26,001 nt of DNA from a virus, in the IMG/VR virus record IMGVR_UViG_3300021964_000448, positions 1 through 26,001 of that record; one strand, given 5' to 3'. A model generated the notes under the pieces. That model ran no database searches. It was given only the letters and a program-made list of their open reading frames with translations, and was not told the origin of the DNA. Both the position numbers and the translations under genes were made by a program. Of this stretch, positions 2,241 to 18,620 are shown piece by piece; the stretch's first letter is position 1, and each line of letters begins with the position of its first letter.

Positions 2241-3516
2241 TAAAAACTCCTTCACTATCTAGCTCCGCCGCATCACGCTGGGCTTCTTTGTACTGTGCCG
2301 TGTGCATGTCCATCCTTACATCCACAGTGCCATGCCAACCATTCTGCTTGTTCTTCGAGATACAGAGGTGACGTAGGCCATCTCTCCCTTGATCATCATT
2401 ACGCTTGCCTATCCCGATGATGAGGTCAGCCTCGCCGGCTTTACCTGTCTTCGAGTTGTCAAGGTACTGGTACTCAATTGCGTACATACCATCCGCTTCT
2501 GCCGAAGCCTGTGAAACTCCCCATACGAGACACTTGTTTCTCTTCGCTATCTCCCGAGCCTGTAGGTAGATCTCCTTTAACTTCTCATCACCTCGGTTAA
2601 ACTTACCTCCTATCTTTACCTTGTCGAGTTGGTCAATGAAGATGACGTCCGGCTTGTTAATCTTGCACCAGTCATCAATCTCCTGAATGGTCGTTCCAAC
2701 GCAGTCAAGAACATGTAGGCGGTTGCCGATCTTGCTCCGCCATACTTCCGCAAGTTCACTACGCCGTTCACTGAGTGCTTCCCGCGTAGCTTCAAAGAAG
2801 CTCTGGATGATACGTAGTTTAGTTCGTACAGCCGGCTCTTCGTTTCCCCAAACCGCAACGGTAAAGCCCTGCTCGAGGAACTTCTTAGCGAGGAAAGATG
2901 TGAACGTAGTCTTGCCCGTCTCCGGTCTCGCAAAGATGATTCCAAAATGTCCTCGATCCAAACCCGGAACGTGGTCGGACAACGGTTTCCAGTCGAATGG
3001 AAAATCGGGAGTAATCGAAAGGGAGTCCAGAAGCTCTTCGAGTCCCATGTCCACCGCCGTGTAGGTCGTCTTCTCACCGAGCGAATCCTCCGCTGTACTC
3101 TCAATGAGTCGTTTGAGTTCTCCAAATTCATTGGACTTCCCTAAGAATATGTCGATGGATAATTCAGAGATGACACGTGCGCGATGTCGCATCCACAAAT
3201 CACGTATCACTCTCTCCTGTAGATCGATGTTTGTGCCGATCTTGTCGTCAAGCGTGTAGAAAAGCTCCCAGTACCGATATCGAGTACTGTCGGGTAGGGC
3301 GGGGTGCAAGGTGTCGTAATAAGCCTGTAGCTCGCTCGAGGTTAAGTCTGACTCATACTTTGAGTGGGCGTCGACGAGAGCTTGCCAAATGGAGGCCCAC
3401 TCACCTTCAAACATATCCCGCGTGAGGATATTTTTTACCCGATCATAACACTCCTGCCGTAAGCAGAAGGAAATGATCTTACATTCCAGCGATTGCTGAT
3501 CTGATTGTTCGTTCAC
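2233..3516 (-). CDS. Replicative DNA helicase, DnaB-like
   Basis: A protein of about 427 aa with an N-terminal helical domain of roughly 130 residues and a RecA-like C-terminal motor. Walker A is ARPETGKTT, with the GKT near residue 203 (numbered from 3522); Walker B is DVIFID near 292-297. SQAS (around 337) and ADLIIGIGKRND with LCISKNKQNG match later DnaB motifs. The family unwinds the fork 5'-3' on the lagging strand. Two GTG starts exist: 3522 is only 2 nt from GGAGA, while 3516 has ideal 8-nt spacing, so I prefer 3516. It overlaps the primase gene by 38 nt, so the two are likely co-translated. They look like the two halves of a T7 gp4-type primase-helicase encoded as separate polypeptides. 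Confidence 0.92.
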   Translation of the reverse strand: MNEQSDQQSLECKIISFCLRQECYDRVKNILTRDMFEGEWASIWQALVDAHSKYESDLTSSELQAYYDTLHPALPDSTRYRYWELFYTLDDKIGTNIDLQERVIRDLWMRHRARVISELSIDIFLGKSNEFGELKRLIESTAEDSLGEKTTYTAVDMGLEELLDSLSITPDFPFDWKPLSDHVPGLDRGHFGIIFARPETGKTTFTSFLAKKFLEQGFTVAVWGNEEPAVRTKLRIIQSFFEATREALSERRSELAEVWRSKIGNRLHVLDCVGTTIQEIDDWCKINKPDVIFIDQLDKVKIGGKFNRGDEKLKEIYLQAREIAKRNKCLVWGVSQASAEADGMYAIEYQYLDNSKTGKAGEADLIIGIGKRNDDQGRDGLRHLCISKNKQNGWHGTVDVRMDMHTAQYKEAQRDAAELDSEGVFNG

Positions 3517-4252: not shown

Positions 4253-4288
4253 AGGCTAAAAGCCCCCGTTGTTTTGATAACATGGCGT

Positions 4289-4316
4289 ATTGTACATAAA
4301 AAATAAAAACTGACAA
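4289..4316 (-). promoter_or_regulatory. Leftward promoter for the replication operon
   Basis: Read on the minus strand, TTGTCA (4316-4311), a 16-nt A/T-only-rich spacer and TACAAT (4294-4289) form a good sigma70-type promoter. It lies about 37 nt upstream of the primase ATG at 4252. The first of three AAAACTGACA repeats covers its -35 box, so a factor binding the repeats could control it. Confidence 0.65.
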
Positions 4317-4364
4317 CATCCTCAAAAAAAAAACTGACAGCCTTCTCAAAAAAAACTGACAGCA
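4306..4364 (+). repeat. Three AAAACTGACA direct repeats (left cluster)
   Basis: Copies at 4306-4318, 4330-4342 and 4352-4364 share AAAACTGACA followed by ACA, GCC or GCA. Spacing is 24 and 22 bp, close to two helical turns, so all copies face the same side of the DNA. They lie between the divergent promoters. The same element recurs at 6418-6478. They are probably binding sites for a phage- or host-encoded protein controlling transcription or replication. Confidence 0.7.
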
Positions 4365-4368
4365 CTTC

Positions 4369-4397
4369 TTTACATGCACACACATCTGTGCTACAGT
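4369..4397 (+). promoter_or_regulatory. Rightward early promoter
   Basis: TTTACA (4369-4374), 17 nt, and TACAGT (4392-4397, preceded by TGC, an extended -10 feature) form a sigma70-type promoter facing the rightward small-gene operon. The downstream leader CCGATCAAC...GCCGGGGGTAAACCC...AATG matches, without gaps, the leader behind the promoter at 21078-21106. Confidence 0.65.
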
Positions 4398-4405
4398 CCG
4401 ATCAA

Positions 4406-4467
4406 CCCCTGCCGGGGGTAAACCCTCAATGCACCCCGACGACAGGCCGTCGGTTCTTCTTCCGTAA
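4406..4467 (+). promoter_or_regulatory. Structured leader with 12-codon ORF and terminator-like hairpin
   Basis: The leader has a hairpin (CCCC 4406-4409 with GGGG 4414-4417), an ATG at 4429 opening a 12-codon frame (MHPDDRPSVLLP, stop 4465-4467), and a second hairpin inside that frame (CCGACG 4436-4441 with CGTCGG 4448-4453) followed by TTCTTCTT. The ATG is at the same distance from the promoter as the genuine start at 21138. The layout could be an attenuator or a leader peptide, or simply a remnant of a duplicated promoter/start unit. The stretch 4468-4556 has no other clear feature except the ribosome-binding site of the next gene. Confidence 0.4.
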
Positions 4468-4556
4468 ACAAAACATCCCTACGACCAAAGTCTAATACAA
4501 CACACAATAAAGGTTCTGTACTGTGGTGGTTCATTCACGAAACTGGAGAAGTTAAC

Positions 4557-4811
4557 GTGACAATAAAGCGCATACACATAAACCAACACAACATCAGACA
4601 CAATGCAAAAAACCCAGATGAGTTGCGGCCGGTTGTTACCGTAAAAACAAGCTTAACCAACACAAAAGGTTTTAGCGCAACTATTAACGGAGCTTGTCGC
4701 GTAGTATACTCACCAGACAAGCCGCTATCTTGTGGTGCTAAAGTTTGGATCGAGACAAAGGATACTGTCGTCGTCGATACTGGGGACGGTAATTTTACGG
4801 GAGTAATGTAA
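4557..4811 (+). CDS. Conserved small phage protein (84 aa)
   Basis: The product begins MTIKRIHINQHNIRHNAKNP (GTG start) and contains VVYSPDKPLSCGAKVWIET. The KRIHxNQH opening and the PDKPLSCGAxVWIET core recur in small proteins of many phages and some bacteria; I know no function. GGAGAA lies 8 nt upstream of the GTG, which supports this start. The stop overlaps the next gene's ATG as TAATG. It is the first protein-coding gene of the rightward early operon after the 4369 promoter. Confidence 0.85.
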   Translation: MTIKRIHINQHNIRHNAKNPDELRPVVTVKTSLTNTKGFSATINGACRVVYSPDKPLSCGAKVWIETKDTVVVDTGDGNFTGVM

Positions 4812-4993
4812 TGAAATATTATACAGACCAAGAAATACTGGATATGATCGAGAGCAAGGAAGTTACCAAGTTAGTTGCGGAGCGTTTTAACCAAAAAGAC
4901 AGAATGGTACAACACGCTCAGGAAAGACTAACCGTGGCCGCAGAACATATTGGACACCAATTTATAACCGACCTAGTACAGGAGCAATATTGA
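4811..4993 (+). CDS. Small hypothetical protein (60 aa)
   Basis: A 60-aa, highly charged, probably all-helical protein (MKYYTDQEILDMIESKEVTK) with no Cys and no membrane segment. The start overlaps the previous stop by one base and the next gene begins one base after its stop, so it is translated as part of a coupled chain. No family is recognised. Confidence 0.75.
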   Translation: MKYYTDQEILDMIESKEVTKLVAERFNQKDRMVQHAQERLTVAAEHIGHQFITDLVQEQY

Positions 4994-4994
4994 A

Positions 4995-5336
4995 ATGATT
5001 GCAGAACAATACCGAAACATTAAACCCCATTTCGTACATGCGGATCATATGCCGATGGTTTGCCGGTGGTCTTGCATCCTGTTGGATCAGGATACGGAGA
5101 ACCCACCATTCGAACCGGCGCGGTACTTTGTTGTCAATGTGTTTGCAGAAACAAAAGACGCGGTACTTAATTGTTTAGGGGAGGAGTATCCGTGGTGCGA
5201 CATTATGTACGTTGATAGAGCACTCGGTGGACACACTGACGAGGATTTCCTAGAATCATGGTTGCATTACTTTGATGCGAAAGAAGCAGTACCAGTAAGG
5301 GAAGCACCACATGGGAGGGATTATGCACACAATTGA
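4995..5336 (+). CDS. Hypothetical protein (113 aa)
   Basis: A 113-aa acidic protein with four Cys residues spread through it (VCRWSC, NCLGEEYPWC) and a central β-like segment ARYFVVNVFAETKDAVLNC. The four Cys could form a metal site or disulphides, but spacing does not match a known zinc motif. It begins one base after the previous stop. Its 3' end overlaps the 44-aa gene by 14 nt. Function unknown. Confidence 0.75.
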   Translation: MIAEQYRNIKPHFVHADHMPMVCRWSCILLDQDTENPPFEPARYFVVNVFAETKDAVLNCLGEEYPWCDIMYVDRALGGHTDEDFLESWLHYFDAKEAVPVREAPHGRDYAHN

Positions 5337-5457
5337 AAAAGTTTTTGATTTACTTGCTGATGTAGATATCGACGGCGAGTTAGTGGAAATATTTGACGAT
5401 AGTATTTGGATTAACGTAACTAATGTGGATACAAAACAAAATGATGACGATAAGTAA
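5323..5457 (+). CDS. Tiny acidic hypothetical protein (44 aa)
   Basis: A short gene with ATG at 5323 immediately after a strong GGGAGGG ribosome-binding site. The product, MHTIEKVFDLLADVDIDGEL then VEIFDDSIWINVTNVD and a DDDK end, is strongly acidic (many Asp). Overlaps of 14 nt with the gene before and about 17 nt with the gene after fit the coupled layout here. Strong acidity in a small early phage protein is sometimes seen in DNA mimics, but nothing else supports that. Confidence 0.6.
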   Translation: MHTIEKVFDLLADVDIDGELVEIFDDSIWINVTNVDTKQNDDDK

Positions 5458-5644
5458 CGAGAACAAAACGCGAGTAGATTATCTTGTGCATAAACAAGTT
5501 ACAGAAATACTTGCGTTAGTTAAACAGGCAAGCGAAAAACTTAACGACACTGGCGACGTCGAGTCTGACTCACTAGATAACGCGAGTAGTCATTTAAAGT
5601 GTGGGATTGATATGCTCGACCATTACTTGAGGGCAAACGCATGA
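5441..5644 (+). CDS. Small hypothetical protein (67 aa)
   Basis: The frame opens at 5423 but I prefer the ATG at 5441 (MMTISNENKTRVDYLVHKQV), which gives a smaller overlap with the 44-aa gene; neither start has a strong ribosome-binding site. The product is helical and charged, with one Cys and a C-terminal LDHYLRANA. The stop overlaps the next possible start as ATGA. Function unknown. Confidence 0.6.
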   Translation: MMTISNENKTRVDYLVHKQVTEILALVKQASEKLNDTGDVESDSLDNASSHLKCGIDMLDHYLRANA

Positions 5645-5880
5645 GACCCAAAACAATCCACCACCCCGAAGCACTCGCAGACTGGCGAGCAAACGACGAA
5701 AAACCATACACTTTTAGTGGAGAAACAAACAATGCAAGTACACGTGAACATAGTACGCACGACAACAAAGTTTCCAAAGAGCAAACGAAACTTGAAGGAT
5801 TACTCGCACGACGTCTTAAAGACGCCATCGAGCAAGAAACTCGGAAGCGCGGGGAGGTACGTAAAGAAGGGGAAGCTTAA
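5641..5880 (+). CDS. Possible overlapping small protein (79 aa)
   Basis: An ATG at 5641 overlaps the previous stop as ATGA and has GAGGG 7 nt upstream, so the initiation signals are good. The product (MRPKTIHHPEALADWRANDE..., charged, Ala/Glu/Lys-rich at the end) is not recognised. The difficulty is a 149-nt overlap in another frame with the GP88-like gene, unusually long here. Without it, 5645-5731 would have no gene. It may be real, or only a short coupling ORF that brings ribosomes to the next gene. Confidence 0.4.
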   Translation: MRPKTIHHPEALADWRANDEKPYTFSGETNNASTREHSTHDNKVSKEQTKLEGLLARRLKDAIEQETRKRGEVRKEGEA

Positions 5881-6418
5881 AGGGGCTGAAGTCTACACAT
5901 TAACCTTAACTGAACGAGAAACTTGCCCGCAGTCTTGCGGACACTGGGACGATTGTTACGGAAACAAGATGCCCTTTGCCCATCGCCTAGAGCATGGCCG
6001 AGAGCTTGAGGATCGTTTATTCCATGAAGTAGGGGAGAAGTGTAAGAGGGCCGCAGAGAAAGGACGCAAGGTACTGGTGCGCTTGCATGTACTCGGAGAC
6101 TTTTACAGTACCGAATATGTGTTGCTCTGGCGTACCCTCATGGTCTTAAACGAAAACCTCTATGTCTGGGGATACACGCACCACACTGCCCACACTGATT
6201 CCGATATTTACAAGGAATTGTTTACCAACCGAGTTGCTTTTCCGGAGCGGTGGTTTGTTCGTTGGTCTGATACTGGTATGCGCTTTAGTGCGAATAGTGA
6301 GGAACTCGGCACGACCGGCATAGTATGTCCGGAACAGGAGGGAAAAACTGAAGCTTGTACCACTTGTAGTCTCTGTTGGGATGCTCCCGATAAGAACATC
6401 ATCTTTAAAACGCATTAA
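5732..6418 (+). CDS. GP88-like Cys-rich phage protein
   Basis: I start at the ATG at 5732 (228 aa), with GGAG 9 nt upstream; an in-frame GTG at 5717 overlaps that site. A lysine-rich N-terminus leads to the core VYTLTLTERETCPQSCGHWD then DCYGNKMPFAHR, which I recognise from the GP88 (mycobacteriophage gene product 88-type) family. Cys occur at 65, 69 and 75 and again at 199, 209, 212 and 215 (CPEQEGKTEACTTCSLCW), a set that could hold zinc or an Fe-S cluster. VLVRLHVLGDFYS and YVWGYTHH are the other conserved-looking segments. The biochemical role of the family is not known to me. The stop codon runs straight into the right-hand repeat cluster. Confidence 0.8.
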   Translation: MQVHVNIVRTTTKFPKSKRNLKDYSHDVLKTPSSKKLGSAGRYVKKGKLKGAEVYTLTLTERETCPQSCGHWDDCYGNKMPFAHRLEHGRELEDRLFHEVGEKCKRAAEKGRKVLVRLHVLGDFYSTEYVLLWRTLMVLNENLYVWGYTHHTAHTDSDIYKELFTNRVAFPERWFVRWSDTGMRFSANSEELGTTGIVCPEQEGKTEACTTCSLCWDAPDKNIIFKTH

Positions 6419-6478
6419 AAACTGGCAACATTCTGTAAAGGAAAACTGACAACAGTCTGTAAAGGAAAACTGACAACA
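6418..6478 (+). repeat. Three AAAACTGACAACA direct repeats (right cluster)
   Basis: Copies at 6418-6430 (one mismatch, CTGGCA), 6442-6454 and 6466-6478 recur every 24 bp; the first two are followed by TTCTGTAAAGG or GTCTGTAAAGG. The sequence matches the left cluster at 4306-4364 in the same orientation. The array starts on the last base of the GP88-like stop codon, so it is fully intergenic. Such evenly phased sites look like iterons or operators. Confidence 0.75.
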
Positions 6479-6514
6479 TGGTGTATTTAATTTGCCTAGC
6501 GATAACGGTGCTTT

Positions 6515-9811: not shown

Positions 9812-11518
9812 ATGTCGGATACACCCGAAAACACTGCTCAACCAAAGAAGCGCGGACGCCCAAAAAAAGACCCAAATGCACCCAAAAGCCGTTACAACCT
9901 CTCCACGGCTGAAAAAGCCCGTCGAGCAACACAAGCGAGCATAAGAAGGTCTAAAAAAGAGGCCGAAAAGAAGATTGCGGCCGCTACTAAACAAAAATAC
10001 CGTGCAAATGTACGAGAAAAAGCCGCCTCGAAGGTCGAAACAGCCTTAAAAGGCGAAAAATCCCGTGTTATCGACATTGGAGACCTCAATGAACTCCCAA
10101 AAGCTGTACAAGACCTCGTTGGCGAGTCTGAAGTCGTATTTAAGCCGAATGCCGGGCCTCAGGAGGAATTTCTGTCGGCCCCTGAGCAGGATGTACTCTA
10201 TGGTGGGGCGGCTGGTGGAGGAAAATCTTTTGCTCTACTGGCTGATCCTCTACGTTATTGCCATAATGGTAATCACCGGGGTCTTCTGTTACGTCGTACT
10301 CTCGATGAGTTAACGGAACTCATAAGTAAATCAAAACAACTCTACCCGAAAGCGTTCCCCGGAGCAACATTCCGCGAGAGTAAGTCTACGTGGGTCTTTC
10401 CATCAGGGGCCACGATCTGGTTCTCCTACTTGGATAAAGACAAAGATGTTACACGATATCAGGGGCAAGCCTTTAACTGGATCGCAATTGACGAGGTTAC
10501 ACAGTACCCTACGCCTTACGTCTGGGAATATCTCCGTTCTCGTCTCCGGTCAACCGACCCTGAGCTCTCTGCCAATCTCTCCATGCGATGTACTGCCAAT
10601 CCGGGCGGCGTTGGTGGCTGGTGGGTCAAGAAGATGTACATCGACCAAGGAGAGCCCGGTGCGGCGTTTGTACCGACTGATCTCGAGTCTGAGAAACCTC
10701 TAGTTTACCCTGATGGTCACGCTAAAGCCGGCCAACCTCTCTACTGGCGTAAGTTCGTCCCAGCCCGTCTCACCGATAACCCCTTCCTCATGGCCGACGG
10801 ACAGTATGAAGCCATGCTACTCTCTCTCCCAGAAACCGAGAGAAAGAGACTTCTCGCTGGGGATTGGGACGTCGCAGAAGGATGCGCTTTCCCTGAGTTC
10901 AACAAGTTCAGACATACTGTCGATCCATTCGAGATGCCGACCAACTGGCCCCGTATACGTGCGGCTGACTACGGTTATGCGAGCCCTTCGTGCGTACTCT
11001 GGGGTGCAATTGATTGGGACAACAACATATGGGTCTATCGAGAACTTTACGTAAAACACTTTACAGCAGAGCAATTAGCCGCTAAAATATTAGAGATGGA
11101 GGAGTACGATCCGAATATGCACTATTCGGTACTCGACTCTTCGTGCTGGAACCGTACAGGATACGGTCCTTCCATCGCAGAAACAATGATAAGAATGGGT
11201 TGTCGATGGACCCCCTCAGACCGAAACCGAATTTCCGGAAAAATGGAAATACATCGACGGCTCGGGGATAATGAATTTACAAGGGAACCGACCCTCAAAA
11301 TATTCAACACGTGCACCAACACTGTTCGCCAGCTCGCAGGTATTCCTCTCTCAAAAACAAACTCCGAGGATGTGGATACAAAGGCAGAAGACCACGCCTA
11401 TGACGCCTTGCGTTATATGCTGATGACTCGAACATCCGGTTACGTCTCCATCCACAAAACCTTGAACGACATTAAGAATAGCACGTTTAAACCACAGGAT
11501 GCAACATTTGGATACTAA
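9812..11518 (+). CDS. terL: Terminase large subunit (TerL) with basic AT-hook-like N-terminal extension
   Basis: A 568-aa packaging motor. Walker A GGAAGGGKS is at 131-139, Walker B WIAIDE at 223-228, and a TANPGG coupling motif at 261-266. The nuclease domain shows AADYGYASPS (D386), LDSSCWNRTG (D442) and EDHAYDALRY (D527). It translocates DNA into proheads using ATP and cuts concatemers. Unusual is the N-terminal extension of roughly 100 residues, very rich in Lys, Arg and Ala, with PKKRGRPKKDPNAPK, which resembles an AT-hook (core RGRP). The start follows the TerS stop by one base, with no ribosome-binding site, so translation is probably coupled. The stop is immediately followed by the next ATG. 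Confidence 0.95.
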   Translation: MSDTPENTAQPKKRGRPKKDPNAPKSRYNLSTAEKARRATQASIRRSKKEAEKKIAAATKQKYRANVREKAASKVETALKGEKSRVIDIGDLNELPKAVQDLVGESEVVFKPNAGPQEEFLSAPEQDVLYGGAAGGGKSFALLADPLRYCHNGNHRGLLLRRTLDELTELISKSKQLYPKAFPGATFRESKSTWVFPSGATIWFSYLDKDKDVTRYQGQAFNWIAIDEVTQYPTPYVWEYLRSRLRSTDPELSANLSMRCTANPGGVGGWWVKKMYIDQGEPGAAFVPTDLESEKPLVYPDGHAKAGQPLYWRKFVPARLTDNPFLMADGQYEAMLLSLPETERKRLLAGDWDVAEGCAFPEFNKFRHTVDPFEMPTNWPRIRAADYGYASPSCVLWGAIDWDNNIWVYRELYVKHFTAEQLAAKILEMEEYDPNMHYSVLDSSCWNRTGYGPSIAETMIRMGCRWTPSDRNRISGKMEIHRRLGDNEFTREPTLKIFNTCTNTVRQLAGIPLSKTNSEDVDTKAEDHAYDALRYMLMTRTSGYVSIHKTLNDIKNSTFKPQDATFGY

Positions 11519-13354
11519 ATGGCTAAGGTAACTCCAAAACAAGAAACCCTGAGTAATTTTGAAAAGTTGTACGACATCCTATTTTCTGGAGATGTACCAG
11601 ATCGGGACGACTTATTTGAACGTGTAAAAGCCGGGGATGAGCTAACAGTGCGTGAAGCATTTTTGGCTCGTATGTACGCTCAAGGAATTGAGATTGCCCC
11701 TGCTGTTTTAAAAGATGAACGACTCGGCCCTATAGCAAAAGACATTCAAGATCGTTTTGGAAAACCGAATACGGATCAGCCTGTTGTTGCCGGTGGTCTC
11801 GCAAAACAAATTGAAACGGTATCAAATAAAGCCGGCGGACTCGACGCTTCTTATCAACAGCTAGTCAGTGATGCTGAAGCGGGTAAAATAACAGGCGTTA
11901 GCACTCAAATTAAAGCGTTACAACGTCAGGTTGAAAACTTTAAAAAGGGTGCTCTCGGTAAAGTGGGGGGTACAGCGGATCTAAAGTTCGCCAAAGCCCC
12001 TACGGATCGTACCATTAAAGCTATCGTCGAAGGGATTGCGCGCATTCCTGATGAAAACCTTCGAGATGCGGTGTACCTATCCATATTTGGTATGCGAAGC
12101 AAGGCTCTTTCGCAGATGGCGACAGACTTTGAGTCTGCGTCTGAGCTCGAAGTTCCCCGCCCCTACTTTGATGCGGAAACAGGGACTGTAGAAACGCCGA
12201 AGGTTAAGGGGCGTAAGCAATTAGGTGAGCCACGTAAAATGGGACCTATTGCAACGTCTATACTACAACGTCGAGCGCAGGCCGCCGTAGACGCAGGTGA
12301 AACTTTTATTTTTCCTGATATCAGTGACGCGCAGATTCAAAAAGCTCTAAAAGATTACGTATTTAACAAAAAATTCTTTCCGGCGGCAGAAGTAAATCAT
12401 TTAGGTAGATTACCAACAGGTATGACAGATTTACGTCGCTTGTTTGTGTCTTACGTAGGTAATAACTATCCTGACGATTTGGCTACAGCCGAAACACTAC
12501 TAGGCCACAGCGCACCTCCTAAAGGGGCTACAAAAGTAGGCGCGAGATTTTACCTCACTGTTGATAGCACTGAAGCTGAAGCTATAGGGACGTTCTTAAC
12601 TGAATTTGAACAACGAGTAGCTCAAACAGTGGGGGCTAAATCCTACAACGATTTTAGTGCAAAGCTCGGAGTTCCGTTTGACGACACGTCTGTAGTTAAC
12701 TTTGTCAATATTGAAACACAAAAGGACGAAATAAAAGCCGGACTCCGCGAAAAGCTAGAGGCTGAAAAGACCCCGATGAGTGACGCTGAGAGACAGGCGT
12801 TGGAGGCTGAAAGAATTGCTACACTTAACAAGGGTGCTGGAGAAGCCAATAGAGCCGCTGAACTAGCAGGTGTAGAAGCTGAAACTGCTAAGCGGGAACG
12901 TTTACGGCTAGCCCGTGAGAATGCGGAGCTACAAGCCACTGCCCCAACCAAAAAAGATATCCTTCAGAAAAATGCAATTCAAGATGCAGAGGAAATTGCA
13001 AGTAAAACTGGCGGCTTAGATCTCGGTGGTATTTTTGATTTTGGAAAGAAAGCCCTCGGAGCGTTAGGCGTTCCCGGAATGGGGTACATCGACACTGAAA
13101 ACAGGTTAGGTGTTCTCGAACAAGCCGGGTATGTAGGACCTCAAGCTGAGCAATACGTCACACAAGACATCGGTATGAAAGAAGGGCCGCTAGGGGTCGT
13201 AGAACTCGTAGGACAAGGTATGCGGGCAGGTATGGAACAGCTCGGTATAAAGGAACCTTTGTCTCAAGAAGAAATTGATGCACAACAAGTGCAAGCGTAC
13301 GAAAATCAACTACTAAACATGGGTATTAACCCTGAAGATATAAAAGCACGATAA
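11519..13354 (+). CDS. Late-operon protein with tyrosine-recombinase-like domain (611 aa)
   Basis: Between TerL and portal lies a 611-aa protein. Residues about 165-370 read as a tyrosine recombinase catalytic domain: box I VYLSIFGMRSKAL with R193, a β-hairpin region with KVKGRK (K230/K233), TDLRRLFVSYVG in place of HxLRR (T303, R306), LLGHS with H330, and ARFYL with Y345. Box II His is Thr here, and H-to-Y spacing is 15, longer than usual. No standard core-binding domain is obvious in residues 1-160, which are helical. Residues about 400-475 form a charged coiled coil, and the C-terminus has GGIFDFGKKALGALG and Gly-rich segments. It could be a working integrase, or a recombinase fold recruited into a virion or packaging protein. 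The ATG abuts the TerL stop; no intergenic space for an attP is present on either side. Confidence 0.7.
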   Translation: MAKVTPKQETLSNFEKLYDILFSGDVPDRDDLFERVKAGDELTVREAFLARMYAQGIEIAPAVLKDERLGPIAKDIQDRFGKPNTDQPVVAGGLAKQIETVSNKAGGLDASYQQLVSDAEAGKITGVSTQIKALQRQVENFKKGALGKVGGTADLKFAKAPTDRTIKAIVEGIARIPDENLRDAVYLSIFGMRSKALSQMATDFESASELEVPRPYFDAETGTVETPKVKGRKQLGEPRKMGPIATSILQRRAQAAVDAGETFIFPDISDAQIQKALKDYVFNKKFFPAAEVNHLGRLPTGMTDLRRLFVSYVGNNYPDDLATAETLLGHSAPPKGATKVGARFYLTVDSTEAEAIGTFLTEFEQRVAQTVGAKSYNDFSAKLGVPFDDTSVVNFVNIETQKDEIKAGLREKLEAEKTPMSDAERQALEAERIATLNKGAGEANRAAELAGVEAETAKRERLRLARENAELQATAPTKKDILQKNAIQDAEEIASKTGGLDLGGIFDFGKKALGALGVPGMGYIDTENRLGVLEQAGYVGPQAEQYVTQDIGMKEGPLGVVELVGQGMRAGMEQLGIKEPLSQEEIDAQQVQAYENQLLNMGINPEDIKAR

Positions 13355-13369
13355 ATAAAGGAAAATACT

Positions 13370-13579
13370 ATGAAGTACTCTGAAGCAGACATCATGAATG
13401 CTGATAAAAAAGGTATCGACTATAACTGCGGCGAGAATAACCTCTACCGCGAAAAGGCTGACTTCGACACGGTTGCCAAGACTGATGTATTAATCGAAGC
13501 AATGCCTAAGAAACAGACTAAAACAACTGTAGACACAAGTTTTTTAGCTAAAGCTAACGACACGTCTCTCTACTCTTAA
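13370..13579 (+). CDS. Small hypothetical protein (69 aa)
   Basis: A 69-aa protein (MKYSEADIMNADKKGIDYNC...) with a good AAGGAAAA ribosome-binding site. It has one Cys, a Lys-rich middle (PKKQTKTTVD) and a C-terminal SLYS. It lies 15 nt after the recombinase-like gene and 23 nt before the portal gene, so it belongs to the late operon and may be a minor head component. Not recognised. Confidence 0.75.
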   Translation: MKYSEADIMNADKKGIDYNCGENNLYREKADFDTVAKTDVLIEAMPKKQTKTTVDTSFLAKANDTSLYS

Positions 13580-13602: not shown

Positions 13603-15717
13603 ATGTCCGATAACGGATTTTTACAGCCACCAGATGATGGTTTGGTTGAGGTACGCAACGCGCAAGATCAGATGGCCGGTCTTGCAGGGCATATCCGATC
13701 AAAATTTGAAGATGCGGAAAATGGCCGTCAACTTCATGAACAGCGGTGGCTTCAGGCCTTTAAAAATTTCCGCGGCATTTACGATAGCAGTACCCAATAC
13801 CGAGATTCGGAACGATCTAAAGTATTCATTAAGATTACAAAGACAAAAGTTCTTGCGGCGTACGGCCAAATCACGGACATACTGTTTGCAAACAAAAAGT
13901 TTCCCATTGTTATTGAACCTACCCCCGTACCTGAAGGTATTGCGGAGTTTGCTCACTTAACCACACCCCTTGATAACGCGCAACAACCTCAAGAAGATCC
14001 TTTTGGTTATGCAGGAGATGGTCGTGATCTGCCTCCGGGAGCCACTGAAGCTACAAGTCGTCTTGGAAAGTATGAGGGTCTCCCGCTAACAGAAGGCCCT
14101 TCTAAACTAGGAGAACCACAGGTTCACCCTGCACGTGAAGCCGCACTCGCTCTCGAAAAAGAGATTCACGATCAATTACTCGACACTAACGCCGTTAATG
14201 TACTTCGTAACGCAATCTTTGAGTCTGCTCTTCTTGGCACGGGTATTGTAAAGGGCCCGTTTAATTATTACAAGCGAATTCACAGATGGACGACTGGGGA
14301 AGACGGATCTCGAGAGTATACTCCAGAGGAGAAAGTTGTACCGCGTATTGAACACGTTTCTGTGTGGGACTTTCATCCTGACCCTGCCGCTACGAGCATC
14401 GAAGATTGTGAGTACGTAATTGAAAGGCACCGTTTGTCTCGCCAGCAATTACGCAATCTCATGAATCGACCGTTCTTTAACAGAGAAGCGATTGAGAATA
14501 CTCTCGTTAAAGGGGCAAACTACGAAGACAAGTATTACGAAGACACTATCCGTGAAGAAGAAACTCAGCCTAACGTCAACGAAAGTCGTTTTGAAGTTTT
14601 AGAATACTGGGGTGTTCTCGATGCTAAGTTTGCCGAGGAGGTTGGCTTAGATCTTCCCGATACGATCTCTGAACTCGATCAAGTGCAAATCAATGTGTGG
14701 GTATGTGGCTCGCAAGTACTACGCTGTGTACTCAATCCATTCACTCCAGCTCGTATTCCTTACTCTGCTTTTCCTTACGAAGTAAACCCCTATCAGATTT
14801 GGGGTGTAGGTGTAGCAGAAAATATGGAAGACGCGCAGATGCTAATGAATGGTCACGTGCGTATGGCGATTGACAACTTGGCTCTCGCTGGCAATCTCGT
14901 ATTTGATGTAGATGAGGCGAGCCTCGTTCCCGGACAAAACTTCGATATCTTCCCCGGCAAAGTGTTTAGACGGCAGTCTGGAGTTACTGGAACAGCAATC
15001 AACGGGCTCAAGTTCCCCAATACTGCACCCGAAAACATCCAAATGTATCAAATTGCCCGCCAGCTCTCTGATGAGGAAACAGGCATCCCCTCTATTATGC
15101 ACGGGCAAACAGGCGTAACAGGGACAGGACGTACAGCCTCAGGGCTATCTATGATGTTATCGTCCGGAAATCTTTCAATTAAGACAGTGATTAAGAATAT
15201 CGATGACTATCTTTTGAAACCTCTCGGTGAAGCTTTCTTCCAGTGGAACATGCAATACAACGACAGAAGCCCAGACATAGTGGGAGATCTCGAGATTAAA
15301 CCTCGCGGAACTTCTGCTGTTATGCAAAAAGAAGTGCGGACGCAACGATTGACTACCCTTCTACAGACGATTGCTAACCCTATGTTGGCTCCCTTTATTA
15401 AAATTCCTAACCTCGTCAAAGAGCTTGCAATTTCTCAGGATATCGATCCAGACTTGCTGGTGAATGATATGGACGAGGCTAAAATTTATGCTGAAATGCT
15501 AAAAGGACTTCAAAATGCTCAACAAGGAACAGGCCCAGAAGGTCAGCCTGCTGGTCAGCAACCCGCAGGCATGGGAGGCCCTGACGCAACACTTGGCGGA
15601 CCACCACCAGTTGACAATTCGGGGGTTGGTGGCGGCACAATCGGAACGGGAAATGTTCCGGCTTCAGGGGAAGCTGGATTTACTGGAAACCCTCCTGAGT
15701 CTCAAGGACAACTATAA
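13603..15717 (+). CDS. Portal protein, P22 gp1-like
   Basis: A 704-aa protein close in length to the P22 portal (725 aa). Its N-terminus (LHEQRWLQAFKNFRGIYDSS, then SKVFIKITKTKVLAAYGQIT) and its centre (VPRIEHVSVWDFHPDPAATS, AQMLMNGHVRMAIDNLALAG) are typical of podovirus portals. The portal dodecamer is the DNA channel, the motor docking site and the tail attachment point. About the last 75 residues are a Gly/Pro/Gln-rich flexible tail. It follows TerL in the usual order, with the recombinase-like gene inserted between. The weak AGG-type ribosome-binding site supports the ATG at 13603. Confidence 0.9.
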   Translation: MSDNGFLQPPDDGLVEVRNAQDQMAGLAGHIRSKFEDAENGRQLHEQRWLQAFKNFRGIYDSSTQYRDSERSKVFIKITKTKVLAAYGQITDILFANKKFPIVIEPTPVPEGIAEFAHLTTPLDNAQQPQEDPFGYAGDGRDLPPGATEATSRLGKYEGLPLTEGPSKLGEPQVHPAREAALALEKEIHDQLLDTNAVNVLRNAIFESALLGTGIVKGPFNYYKRIHRWTTGEDGSREYTPEEKVVPRIEHVSVWDFHPDPAATSIEDCEYVIERHRLSRQQLRNLMNRPFFNREAIENTLVKGANYEDKYYEDTIREEETQPNVNESRFEVLEYWGVLDAKFAEEVGLDLPDTISELDQVQINVWVCGSQVLRCVLNPFTPARIPYSAFPYEVNPYQIWGVGVAENMEDAQMLMNGHVRMAIDNLALAGNLVFDVDEASLVPGQNFDIFPGKVFRRQSGVTGTAINGLKFPNTAPENIQMYQIARQLSDEETGIPSIMHGQTGVTGTGRTASGLSMMLSSGNLSIKTVIKNIDDYLLKPLGEAFFQWNMQYNDRSPDIVGDLEIKPRGTSAVMQKEVRTQRLTTLLQTIANPMLAPFIKIPNLVKELAISQDIDPDLLVNDMDEAKIYAEMLKGLQNAQQGTGPEGQPAGQQPAGMGGPDATLGGPPPVDNSGVGGGTIGTGNVPASGEAGFTGNPPESQGQL

Positions 15718-15734: not shown

Positions 15735-18620
15735 ATGGTAACTCTTAGTCCGTTTAGCCCAGATCCTTTTTTTGAAAATCTTAGGATTAGAGCGCGGTTA
15801 AAAACCCAAGAAAATGCGGCTAAATCTTCTGCCACATCAAATGTGGGTAGTGAAGACGTAGATATTTCTCGCGTAGGTGAGCAAATGACATCTGCGTTAG
15901 ATTCTACAGGTGTTTCTATATCTTCTCCGAGCTCTCAAATGTCTGCGGCGGATACCCCTTCAGTCGTTGGTGCCGCAGAACCTAGAATGGGCACAACGGA
16001 AGGGTACTCCTCGTTTATGCGTATTGCGGAAGGTGTGTCTGCAAATTTAGGCCCCCTAGCGGCAACGGCTGTGACAGGAAAGTTTACTCCTGTTACTCGC
16101 GCCGCGCAAGGAATTACGTTTAAAAGTGCTATAGGTCAAACCCCTCGATATTTAGAAGAGTCCACAAAAGTTGAGGGTCTTCCTACCCAAGTCGGTGGTT
16201 TTCAACCGGGGCAGTACTACACGCAAGAAGAAACCGGAGCGTACAGGGCTCTAGCAGGGTCTGAAGCAGACTACTACAACCGCACGGGTGACATTCAAAA
16301 CGTAATGACAGCAGGGGAAGCGGCTCGAAGAAACCCGCTTGGGTACACCGGTCCTGATCCTAGAACTCCCGGCGGACAATTTGCACAGGCGGGTCTCGGA
16401 CTAGCTAATCTTGCTATGCCTGCAATGGGGCTCATGACTGGGTTTTTTGGCCCCACATACGAAACTCCTATCGGTACAAAATATGCTCGCGGCTCTGGCC
16501 TTGGGGGTATTCTCGCTGAACAAAACTATAAAACCATGTGGAAAACCCATGAAGATATGGTAGCGGGAGCTCCCGGTAATTTTGGGATGAAGGTAGGTAA
16601 TACATACTACACGTATCAAGCCCGCAAAGATGCTTTCGGTAATCCCACAGGTTTTGTTGTGGGCGGCACAGATGTTGACGCGAGAACATTCCAAAATTTG
16701 TACGCGGCACAACTCGGTTACGATCCAAAAACGGTCGACTTCGAAAACTCTAGAGCAGGAGAGCTTTACGGGGAGCGACTTCAAGGATTTTCTCCCGGAG
16801 TCGGTGGATTTTCTCCATCAACCGGAGAGTTTGTCGACGCTCGGGGCAGAACTTACACAGAAAATTCCTTGAGTAGAAAAGACGTACAGAATTATGTCGA
16901 TTCTCTTGCCTATTCCCCGTCTCAGCTTCAAGGTGCTCTCGATGCGATGGAGAGGAAAAGAGAAGAAGCTAAAGGGGCATTTTTTGGAGCGGACTACAAA
17001 ACAACTACCTACGCCGAAGCCGTAAATGCAATACGGGATAAAATATCTGTCTCTGAAAACTTACAAGCGACACTAAGCCCCGAAGATTACGAAAAGGCGA
17101 TGGCGCAATTAAATGAGTATTCATCGAGCGCGAGCAATCTAACTGCTGAACAAATAAACGAGTTAGGGTTAGTAATTAACGTAAACGCTTCAGATAAAGC
17201 TCCGGGAGCAACGCAGTGGCGAGAAGTTACAGACCCTGAAACGGGAGTAACAAACCGCTACAACTTCAATCTTGAGGATAGCTCGGATCGGGACTTTCAG
17301 GAGTCAGATAGTTCCTACGCGGAGCGAGAAGAGTCTTTTGCTAGCGTGTCTGGCCCTGACGAGGGAGAAGACGACTCTGAACCGTTATCATTAGCGGCAG
17401 GGGGTCGGGTAAGCAAGTCTGACGGCGATATGGTAGAAGGCCCTGTTGGTTTTGTTAATGGACGCACCCCAGAAGAAGTTAGCGAAGCAGATACTGTTGC
17501 TGATGACGTTGAGGGCTCTGTTCCAGAAGGTACTTTTGTTATTAACGCATCCGCTGTTGAAGAGTATGGTAGCGAGCGTATACGTAAGTTGCTAGTGTCG
17601 GCACTCCAAGAAGCTGAAAGGCAGGGGATTGACATCTCTGCTAGCGACAGTACAATTGTTGATGAGGACTCTGTTTCTGTTGCCGTTTCCGAAGGTGAAG
17701 TTCTCATTCCCCCCGTTCTCGTCCGTATCATCGGACTCAAGAAACTCAAGCAAATAAATTCTCTTGGACAAGAAGAAGTAGCAGAGAGAGTTGAAGAGTA
17801 TGGGCAAGCTGAAGCTTCAGAACCTGTTGAAGGTGAAGCTCAGGTCATGGCCTCTGTAGGCGGAGGCTTTATTGAACGACAAAAAAAGTTTGACGGGGGC
17901 TCCTTATACAAGGCTATCCCCACAAATGTAAGACTTCTCGGGGAGTTTATTGCCGGTAAAGATTCTCCTATTACGGAAGAAGATTTTACCGAAGAAGAAC
18001 TTAAAGCAATGGCTGACGCCGTGGAACGAGCAAAGTCTCGAAACACAGAGCATGAAGCAGAATTGCGACGCCGTATTGAGCAAGGAACGCCGTTTGTTGC
18101 CGAAGAAGACGGCCGAACAGGGCATACAATATATCGAGACTACCGTGGGAAATACGTCCCACCAGAAATGCTCCGACACATGGATGATCCAGAATTTCAA
18201 AAAGAAGCTCTCGAAGTTTTACGCAATCAATTAAAAACCTACGAAGATACCCGCAACAAAACGTCAGTTAGAAACTATTACGTAAATGAAGTTGCAAATC
18301 CCGGCGGGACAATGGAGTTGTTAAAAATACTAAACAACCCTCTGTACCAGCTACAAACAACCCTTGGTGAGTATCGTGCTACTGAAAATAACAACGGCAT
18401 GGTAATCGACGATGAGTACAACTTTAATACCCGAGAACTACGGGAAATGATAGGAAAAGATGAGGTAGAACTCATCGACATCCTTAAAAATTTAGATACA
18501 CCTCAGCTTGCGGCGGAGCTATTTGCTCGGTATGTACAACCAGACCATAAGCGTAGTGTAAATATTAAAATACCAAATTCAGATACTGGGTTTATAGATA
18601 TTCCTCCTGAATTTGAGTGA
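15735..18620 (+). CDS. Large probable virion protein (961 aa) with duplicated EGxFVI-type motif
   Basis: The largest complete gene in the window. It starts 17 nt after the portal gene. The first 550 residues are Gly/Ser/Ala/Tyr-rich and low in predicted order. Around 551-580, SLAAGGRVSKSDGDMVEGPV then GFVNGRTPEE resembles 'AGGRV...GPVGFVNG' modules of marine phage proteins. Two copies of a repeat follow: VPEGTFVINASAVEEYGSER (about 596) and VSEGEVLIPPVLVRIIGLKK (about 653). A charged helical C-terminus includes TLGEYRATENNN...DDEYNFN (about 877-900). Its position between portal and scaffold is where P22-like phages keep head-assembly or ejection genes, so an ejected internal virion protein is possible; the function is not established. 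The ribosome-binding site is weak. Confidence 0.7.
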   Translation: MVTLSPFSPDPFFENLRIRARLKTQENAAKSSATSNVGSEDVDISRVGEQMTSALDSTGVSISSPSSQMSAADTPSVVGAAEPRMGTTEGYSSFMRIAEGVSANLGPLAATAVTGKFTPVTRAAQGITFKSAIGQTPRYLEESTKVEGLPTQVGGFQPGQYYTQEETGAYRALAGSEADYYNRTGDIQNVMTAGEAARRNPLGYTGPDPRTPGGQFAQAGLGLANLAMPAMGLMTGFFGPTYETPIGTKYARGSGLGGILAEQNYKTMWKTHEDMVAGAPGNFGMKVGNTYYTYQARKDAFGNPTGFVVGGTDVDARTFQNLYAAQLGYDPKTVDFENSRAGELYGERLQGFSPGVGGFSPSTGEFVDARGRTYTENSLSRKDVQNYVDSLAYSPSQLQGALDAMERKREEAKGAFFGADYKTTTYAEAVNAIRDKISVSENLQATLSPEDYEKAMAQLNEYSSSASNLTAEQINELGLVINVNASDKAPGATQWREVTDPETGVTNRYNFNLEDSSDRDFQESDSSYAEREESFASVSGPDEGEDDSEPLSLAAGGRVSKSDGDMVEGPVGFVNGRTPEEVSEADTVADDVEGSVPEGTFVINASAVEEYGSERIRKLLVSALQEAERQGIDISASDSTIVDEDSVSVAVSEGEVLIPPVLVRIIGLKKLKQINSLGQEEVAERVEEYGQAEASEPVEGEAQVMASVGGGFIERQKKFDGGSLYKAIPTNVRLLGEFIAGKDSPITEEDFTEEELKAMADAVERAKSRNTEHEAELRRRIEQGTPFVAEEDGRTGHTIYRDYRGKYVPPEMLRHMDDPEFQKEALEVLRNQLKTYEDTRNKTSVRNYYVNEVANPGGTMELLKILNNPLYQLQTTLGEYRATENNNGMVIDDEYNFNTRELREMIGKDEVELIDILKNLDTPQLAAELFARYVQPDHKRSVNIKIPNSDTGFIDIPPEFE

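Follow-up and report, generated by a model that had tools for sequence, protein, structure and literature searches.

The gene between the large terminase (TerL) and portal genes of the window, meaning the whole 26,001-nucleotide stretch of DNA, from an IMG/VR virus record, that was analysed, very probably encodes a genuine and active tyrosine recombinase, its activity being inferred in the absence of biochemical data. It represents a new, strongly diverged branch of the tyrosine recombinases, and its genetics are the novelty. The gene has a fixed location, and phages exchange the head of its enzyme as a module drawn from a shared pool. In the best reading of its function it is an integrase-type recombinase, expressed late and with a DNA specificity that can be exchanged, and its tail may load it into the virion. 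This reading is favoured only narrowly, at a probability of roughly 0.55, and both integration and virion loading are inferred.

The slot contains an ORF of 611 aa at 11519-13354 on the + strand, with an ATG start, lying head-to-tail behind the HMO-2011-type TerL (9812-11518, +; phrog_979). It abuts this gene, its first base directly following the TerL stop codon (11518), and 15 nt separate its end from a 69-aa ORF (13370-13579, +; C-terminus TSFLAKANDTSLYS) that is kept between the recombinase and the portal (13603-15717, +; PF23899, phrog_332). The gene after the portal (15735-18620, +; C-terminus SDTGFIDIPPEFE) is a second hypervariable cassette. TerL and portal of the window are about 50% identical to those of HMO-2011-type marine phages, namely the Roseobacter CRP phages, pelagiphage HTVC115P and HMO-2011. 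An ORF of approximately 70-80 aa is present between the recombinase and the portal in most loci, some of these ending in SFLAKAN. The initial annotation had reported a 611-aa gene between TerL and portal carrying R193 in GMRSKAL, R306 in TDLRRL, H330 in LLGHS and Y345 in ARFYL, and all of these residues are where it placed them. The location in the late operon is likewise real, being conserved in more than 100 related contigs.

Sequence, structure and catalytic residues

On its own, the window protein had no match in searches of Pfam, PF00589 included, PHROGs, PDB sequences or phage records, so bridging homologues were needed for its detection. Pattern scans seeded with the window protein returned just 5 to 10 close relatives each; it was portal-guided scans that succeeded, retrieving about 200 related viral contigs, in which homologues were then sought with an iterative profile. 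A total of 148 homologous ORFs (115 distinct) were identified, all 148 beside the portal and/or TerL in the TerL-portal slot, and no recombinase homologues were found by this profile outside the slot in the fetched contigs.

Slot homologues do match PF00589 directly, as in L077 (2e-30), L089 (5e-23), L080 (6e-21) and L040 (1.5e-5), and 46 of 99 members match a PHROG integrase. As a check on circularity, the canonical-looking members L077, L080, L089 and L120 were removed, after which PF00589 was matched by 30 of 93 members. The family profile without canonical members found XerA (3e-11), XerD (4e-7) and lambda Int (2e-5), as well as Tn1549 Int. When the profile was restricted to the 16 nearest relatives, it found no recombinase in the PDB; the recombinase link therefore rests on the wider family.

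Residues 1-405 were modelled by AlphaFold2 from the 99-sequence alignment with a pLDDT of 87.8 and a pTM of 0.84, the loop 335-349, which bears Y345, being of low confidence. With 6 closely related sequences the pLDDT was 46 and the model was uninformative. An all-helical N-terminal region of DNA-binding type (residues 1-145; 11519-11953, +), with pLDDT >90 over most of its length, precedes the tyrosine recombinase catalytic domain (residues 160-370; 11996-12628, +), which is supported by conservation, profile, model and Foldseek. Against the PDB, Foldseek ranks 1 to 15 are all tyrosine recombinases, with lambda Int first (best E 5e-4) and Brujita Int, XerA, XerH and IntI4 among the leaders; in a viral structure library the top matches are mostly phage integrases. 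The TM-scores are modest (0.3-0.5), for which a differing domain arrangement is the likely cause. The initial annotation had named a predicted fold unrelated to tyrosine recombinases as a refutation, and this did not occur.

Protelomerases and topoisomerases IB were considered in view of the box II without histidine. Neither is among the 50 listed Foldseek matches in the PDB, where integrases and Xer proteins rank first, and both were rejected on this ranking.

Conservation was assessed in 67 representatives of <60% identity, with a median pairwise identity of 14%. Only R193 (box I arginine; 12095-12097, +), R306 (box II arginine; 12434-12436, +) and Y345 (catalytic tyrosine; 12551-12553, +) are invariant in all 67, F265 being present in 66, and the same three are the sole invariant columns in MAFFT alignments of 99 and of 93 sequences. 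These residues are the tyrosine recombinase signature, and their conservation is far beyond chance. In alignments of the family profile to the solved XerA and XerD, the conserved columns fall on the box I Arg, the box II Arg, the box III His and the catalytic Tyr. That the residues converge in a single active site, the lack of which the initial annotation would also have taken as a refutation, is an inference supported by this alignment to solved recombinases only and not by the model, from which residue distances do not form part of the evidence.

The other catalytic positions are more relaxed. The box II His/Lys position is T303 in the window (12425-12427, +), and among the 67 representatives it is S in 17, Y in 12, K in 10, T in 9 and H in 4, so that His is rare. 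The box III position, H330 (12506-12508, +), is H in 34, R in 32 and S in 1, and is invariantly His in the window's own 16-member subclade. K233 (12215-12217, +) is the likely beta-hairpin lysine (K in 20, N in 13, R in 10), the alignment of the hairpin being unreliable across the family. The H-to-Y spacing is 15 residues, as against the usual 9 or so in tyrosine recombinases; both this long spacing and the replacement of the box II His by Thr had been described in the initial annotation, and both hold. With the box II His mostly lost and Arg at box III in half of the family, it is possible that some members are altered or impaired. The dN/dS of the gene is 0.05-0.13, indicating that it is under purifying selection. 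The proposal of a tyrosine-recombinase-like domain has thus held, and is stronger than when it was made, through homologues, profiles, fold and the near-absolute conservation of catalytic residues.

A fixed slot and an exchanged head

The presence of the slot gene follows the relatedness of the backbone. In deduplicated loci, it is found in 95 of 95 with a portal at least 70% identical to that of the window, in 8 of 23 at 58-70%, and in none of 37 below 58%. The slot of HMO-2011 is empty, and that of HTVC115P contains three small ORFs.

Within this fixed location the enzyme is replaced wholesale. For pairs of phages with portals at least 95% identical and TerL about 98% identical, the median identity of the recombinases is 14%, and DNA homology stops 8-12 nt past the start codon and returns 20-30 nt before the stop. 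In the window's subclade the exchange point falls inside the gene. Compared with L002, the window has a dS of 0.05 in the head (residues 1-400), against 2.1 in TerL, 2.3 in the portal and 1.4 in the tail; compared with L004, saturation is seen in the head (dS about 3), with tail and portal at about 0.5. Heads more than 80% identical are also found in backbones with portals less than 80% identical. The C-terminal tail (residues 475-611; 12941-13351, +) tracks the phage backbone, not the head.

Many of the tails end in a short motif. Of 110 distinct recombinase tails, 83 have the pattern [GSN]F[LIVM] within their last 20 aa. The background is 3% for internal 20-mers taken from the C-terminal halves of these proteins and 39 of 889 for other genes. 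Of these 39, the gene right after the portal accounts for 26 (out of 82 at that position) and the small ORF before the portal for 4; the enrichment in the gene after the portal has p=7e-20 against the remaining genes, with related genes counted as independent. The motif was first spotted by eye in the recombinase tails, and only the set of other genes is an independent test. The window's own tail has no GF motif in its last 20 residues, having GMGYIDTEN at about 520-528 instead. A phmmer comparison of the recombinase tails with the gene after the portal gave nothing significant, the short motif alone being in common. The gene after the portal is hypervariable, with Pesticin-type or Hydrolase_2 domains in up to 10 of 50 members (5 each), and could be a virion-associated entry protein, with which these features are consistent.

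The sister phage L121 has a 372-aa slot protein that is undetected by the recombinase profile and whose C-terminus matches the tail of the L077 recombinase (E 5e-8). This suggests that the tail is independent of the enzyme. It may be a docking element able to carry different heads, which is an inference.

Other large genes occupy the slot in the more distant L014 and L015 (phages phiM6 and RHph_N3_19), the contents there being PhoH with an SGNH hydrolase, and an 849-aa unknown protein. Two further large slot proteins were missed by the recombinase profile. One (L143:7559-9661) combines a box I-like GDRAAEFSRL with a GSFL motif close to its end, and the other (L137:3678-5885) has the C-terminus GGFVTL. 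These two are possibly further or degenerate slot members.

The case for an integrase and its rivals

In the proposed explanation, the recombinase would be made with the late packaging and structural genes of HMO-2011-type marine podoviruses. Its head (about residues 1-400, the helical N-terminal and catalytic domains) would recognise a specific DNA site, where Y345 is predicted to attack the DNA backbone, aided by R193 and R306. The head would serve as the specificity module swapped between phages, with the C-terminal tail staying with the backbone. The reaction would be the site-specific integration of the phage in its host, or its excision, and the enzyme would stand in for the canonical integrase located near the replication genes of HMO-2011 and CRP-3. 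A weaker step is that the tail may dock the enzyme to the portal or capsid, so that it would ride in the particle and be delivered with the DNA. An integrase-type role is the balance of the evidence by a small margin, and is inferred, there being no data on strand exchange. Virion delivery is a minority hypothesis, which remains possible without virion evidence.

In the long contigs of slot phages, genes matching PF00589 are at most the slot gene itself. HMO-2011 and ctYwJ313, which are without a slot gene, have a canonical integrase elsewhere in the genome, and in CRP-3, which has been proved to integrate at tRNA-Met (PMC6918029), the integrase is upstream of the primase. The corresponding region of the window (4253-5716; strand not given) contains no integrase, this being the place of the canonical one in CRP-3 and, according to the literature (PMC6918029), in related phages. 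This complementary distribution, together with the swapping of heads, favours an integrase-type function with changeable site specificity.

Against this, integrases are not usually placed in a late operon. An attP/attB pair was not found, and a tRNA/attP scan of the window and three further long contigs returned nothing. A scan of 2.8 Mb for a T-arm followed by CCA found two elements, one of them in CRP-3 at 3182, which agrees with the published tRNA-Met attP and serves as a positive control. The other is in a 520-bp intergenic region of a 61-kb slot phage contig, G005 (43585-43657, equivalent to L245:3585-3657), and has a CCA end. ARAGORN did not call this element; it has an Rfam score of 42.9 bits, that of a near-complete tRNA, and its host matches are mainly over the 3' end. 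Given such a score, it could just as well be a phage tRNA as an attP. Integrated prophages of the slot clade were not found with portal patterns in 84,980 genomes, a collection in which the hosts have poor coverage. A search of the contigs for an HTH_3 repressor was negative, which is uninformative, as the integrating CRP-3 is also without one over the cut-off.

Two clusters of direct repeats are present in the window at 4304-4375 and 6416-6487, each of three AAAACTGRCA-type repeats with a spacing of about 24 nt, and about 2.1 kb apart. The arrangement is similar in G001 and L009 and absent in G005 and G009, which have other recombinase alleles. The repeats might be operators, origin iterons or recombinase arm sites.

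It could be that the recombinase acts late on the phage DNA itself, in the resolution of multimers or concatemers, in making or joining ends with TerL, or in gene inversion or rearrangement, and is made with TerL and portal since it works with the packaging motor. The gene abuts TerL in the same orientation as the portal, it is a core gene in all close relatives, which is stricter than expected of an optional lysogeny gene, and no prophages of the clade were recovered by the portal patterns in the 84,980 genomes. However, co-evolution with the backbone would be expected of an enzyme whose target is a fixed site of the phage itself, and heads of 14% identity are instead found in 95%-identical backbones. 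In addition, HMO-2011, HTVC115P and other relatives package their DNA without the slot gene, and inverted repeats around the gene were looked for and not found. This explanation is considered unlikely, as is that of a virion-associated DNA-binding or ejection protein, in which the recombinase fold is used mainly to bind DNA and catalysis is vestigial, or a tyrosyl linkage protects or anchors DNA ends. In its support, the C-terminal motif is common to the gene after the portal, which can bear muralytic domains, the general-acid positions of boxes II and III are relaxed, and a non-recombinase slot protein, that of L121, has a recombinase tail (from L077, E 5e-8). The invariance of R193, R306 and Y345 where nearly all else has changed argues instead for selection for catalysis, and not for mere DNA binding.

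Least probable, and considered very unlikely, is a function in competition or superinfection, in which the enzyme's target would be DNA belonging to rival phages or to mobile elements, and frequency-dependent selection would drive the swapping of alleles. The extreme diversity of alleles at a fixed locus with conserved flanks is like that of loci under diversifying selection, but there is no direct evidence for such a function, and no immunity partner is recognised except for the 69-aa ORF of unknown role. The functional options offered in the initial annotation were a late integrase, concatemer or end processing, and a virion role. Of these, an integrase-type enzyme of exchangeable specificity is the one favoured by the data, and a virion role remains possible; none is proved.

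A bolder form of the integrase-type reading, again no more than possible, is that of a virion-delivered integrase, docked by a short C-terminal peptide common to other cargo, injected with the DNA and recombining at once. If this were true, apparently lytic marine phages would lysogenise without expressing an integrase after entry.

Comparison with known systems

HMO-2011-type phages have been described as a dominant group with a broad oceanic distribution (PMC9038755). Subgroups I-III were reported in a survey of these phages to have int upstream of the replication module, and subgroups IV-X were suggested to be possibly obligately lytic (PMC9038755). The presence of a hidden tyrosine recombinase as a core gene of one large clade calls the obligately lytic reading into question for any subgroup that this clade covers, the slot clade not having been mapped onto the subgroups. 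The evolution of the gene is also unusual, as an obligatory gene has its enzyme head replaced wholesale between near-identical neighbours, and the switching of recombinase specificity is directly testable. The open-access literature searched has no mention of a virion-carried phage integrase or of a recombinase between TerL and portal. Should the tail load the recombinase into virions, a phage integrase would have a means of delivery of which no description was found. Virion ejection and internal proteins, such as P22 gp7/16/20, the N4 virion RNA polymerase and the T7 internal proteins, are proposed as an analogy only, that of enzymes which are loaded close to the portal and delivered together with the DNA.

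The slot family shares with the tyrosine recombinase superfamily (PF00589; XerA/XerD, lambda Int, Tn1549 Int) its fold, the box I Arg, the box II Arg, the catalytic Tyr and a helical N-terminal domain, and the window protein also has an LLGH-type box III. It differs from the superfamily in the replacement of the box II His, the Arg at box III in half of the members, the long tail and the late-operon location. The canonical integrases of HMO-2011, CRP-1, CRP-2 and CRP-3 belong to the same superfamily and are found in the same phage group, but differ in lying upstream of the replication module and in being about 300-360 aa, that of HMO-2011 being recognised by PF00589. Module swapping between related temperate phages, part of phage mosaicism, changes the site specificity of integrases. 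In contrast to such exchangeable integrase modules, the exchange here is allelic and takes place in one fixed slot of the late operon, with the backbone-specific tail kept.
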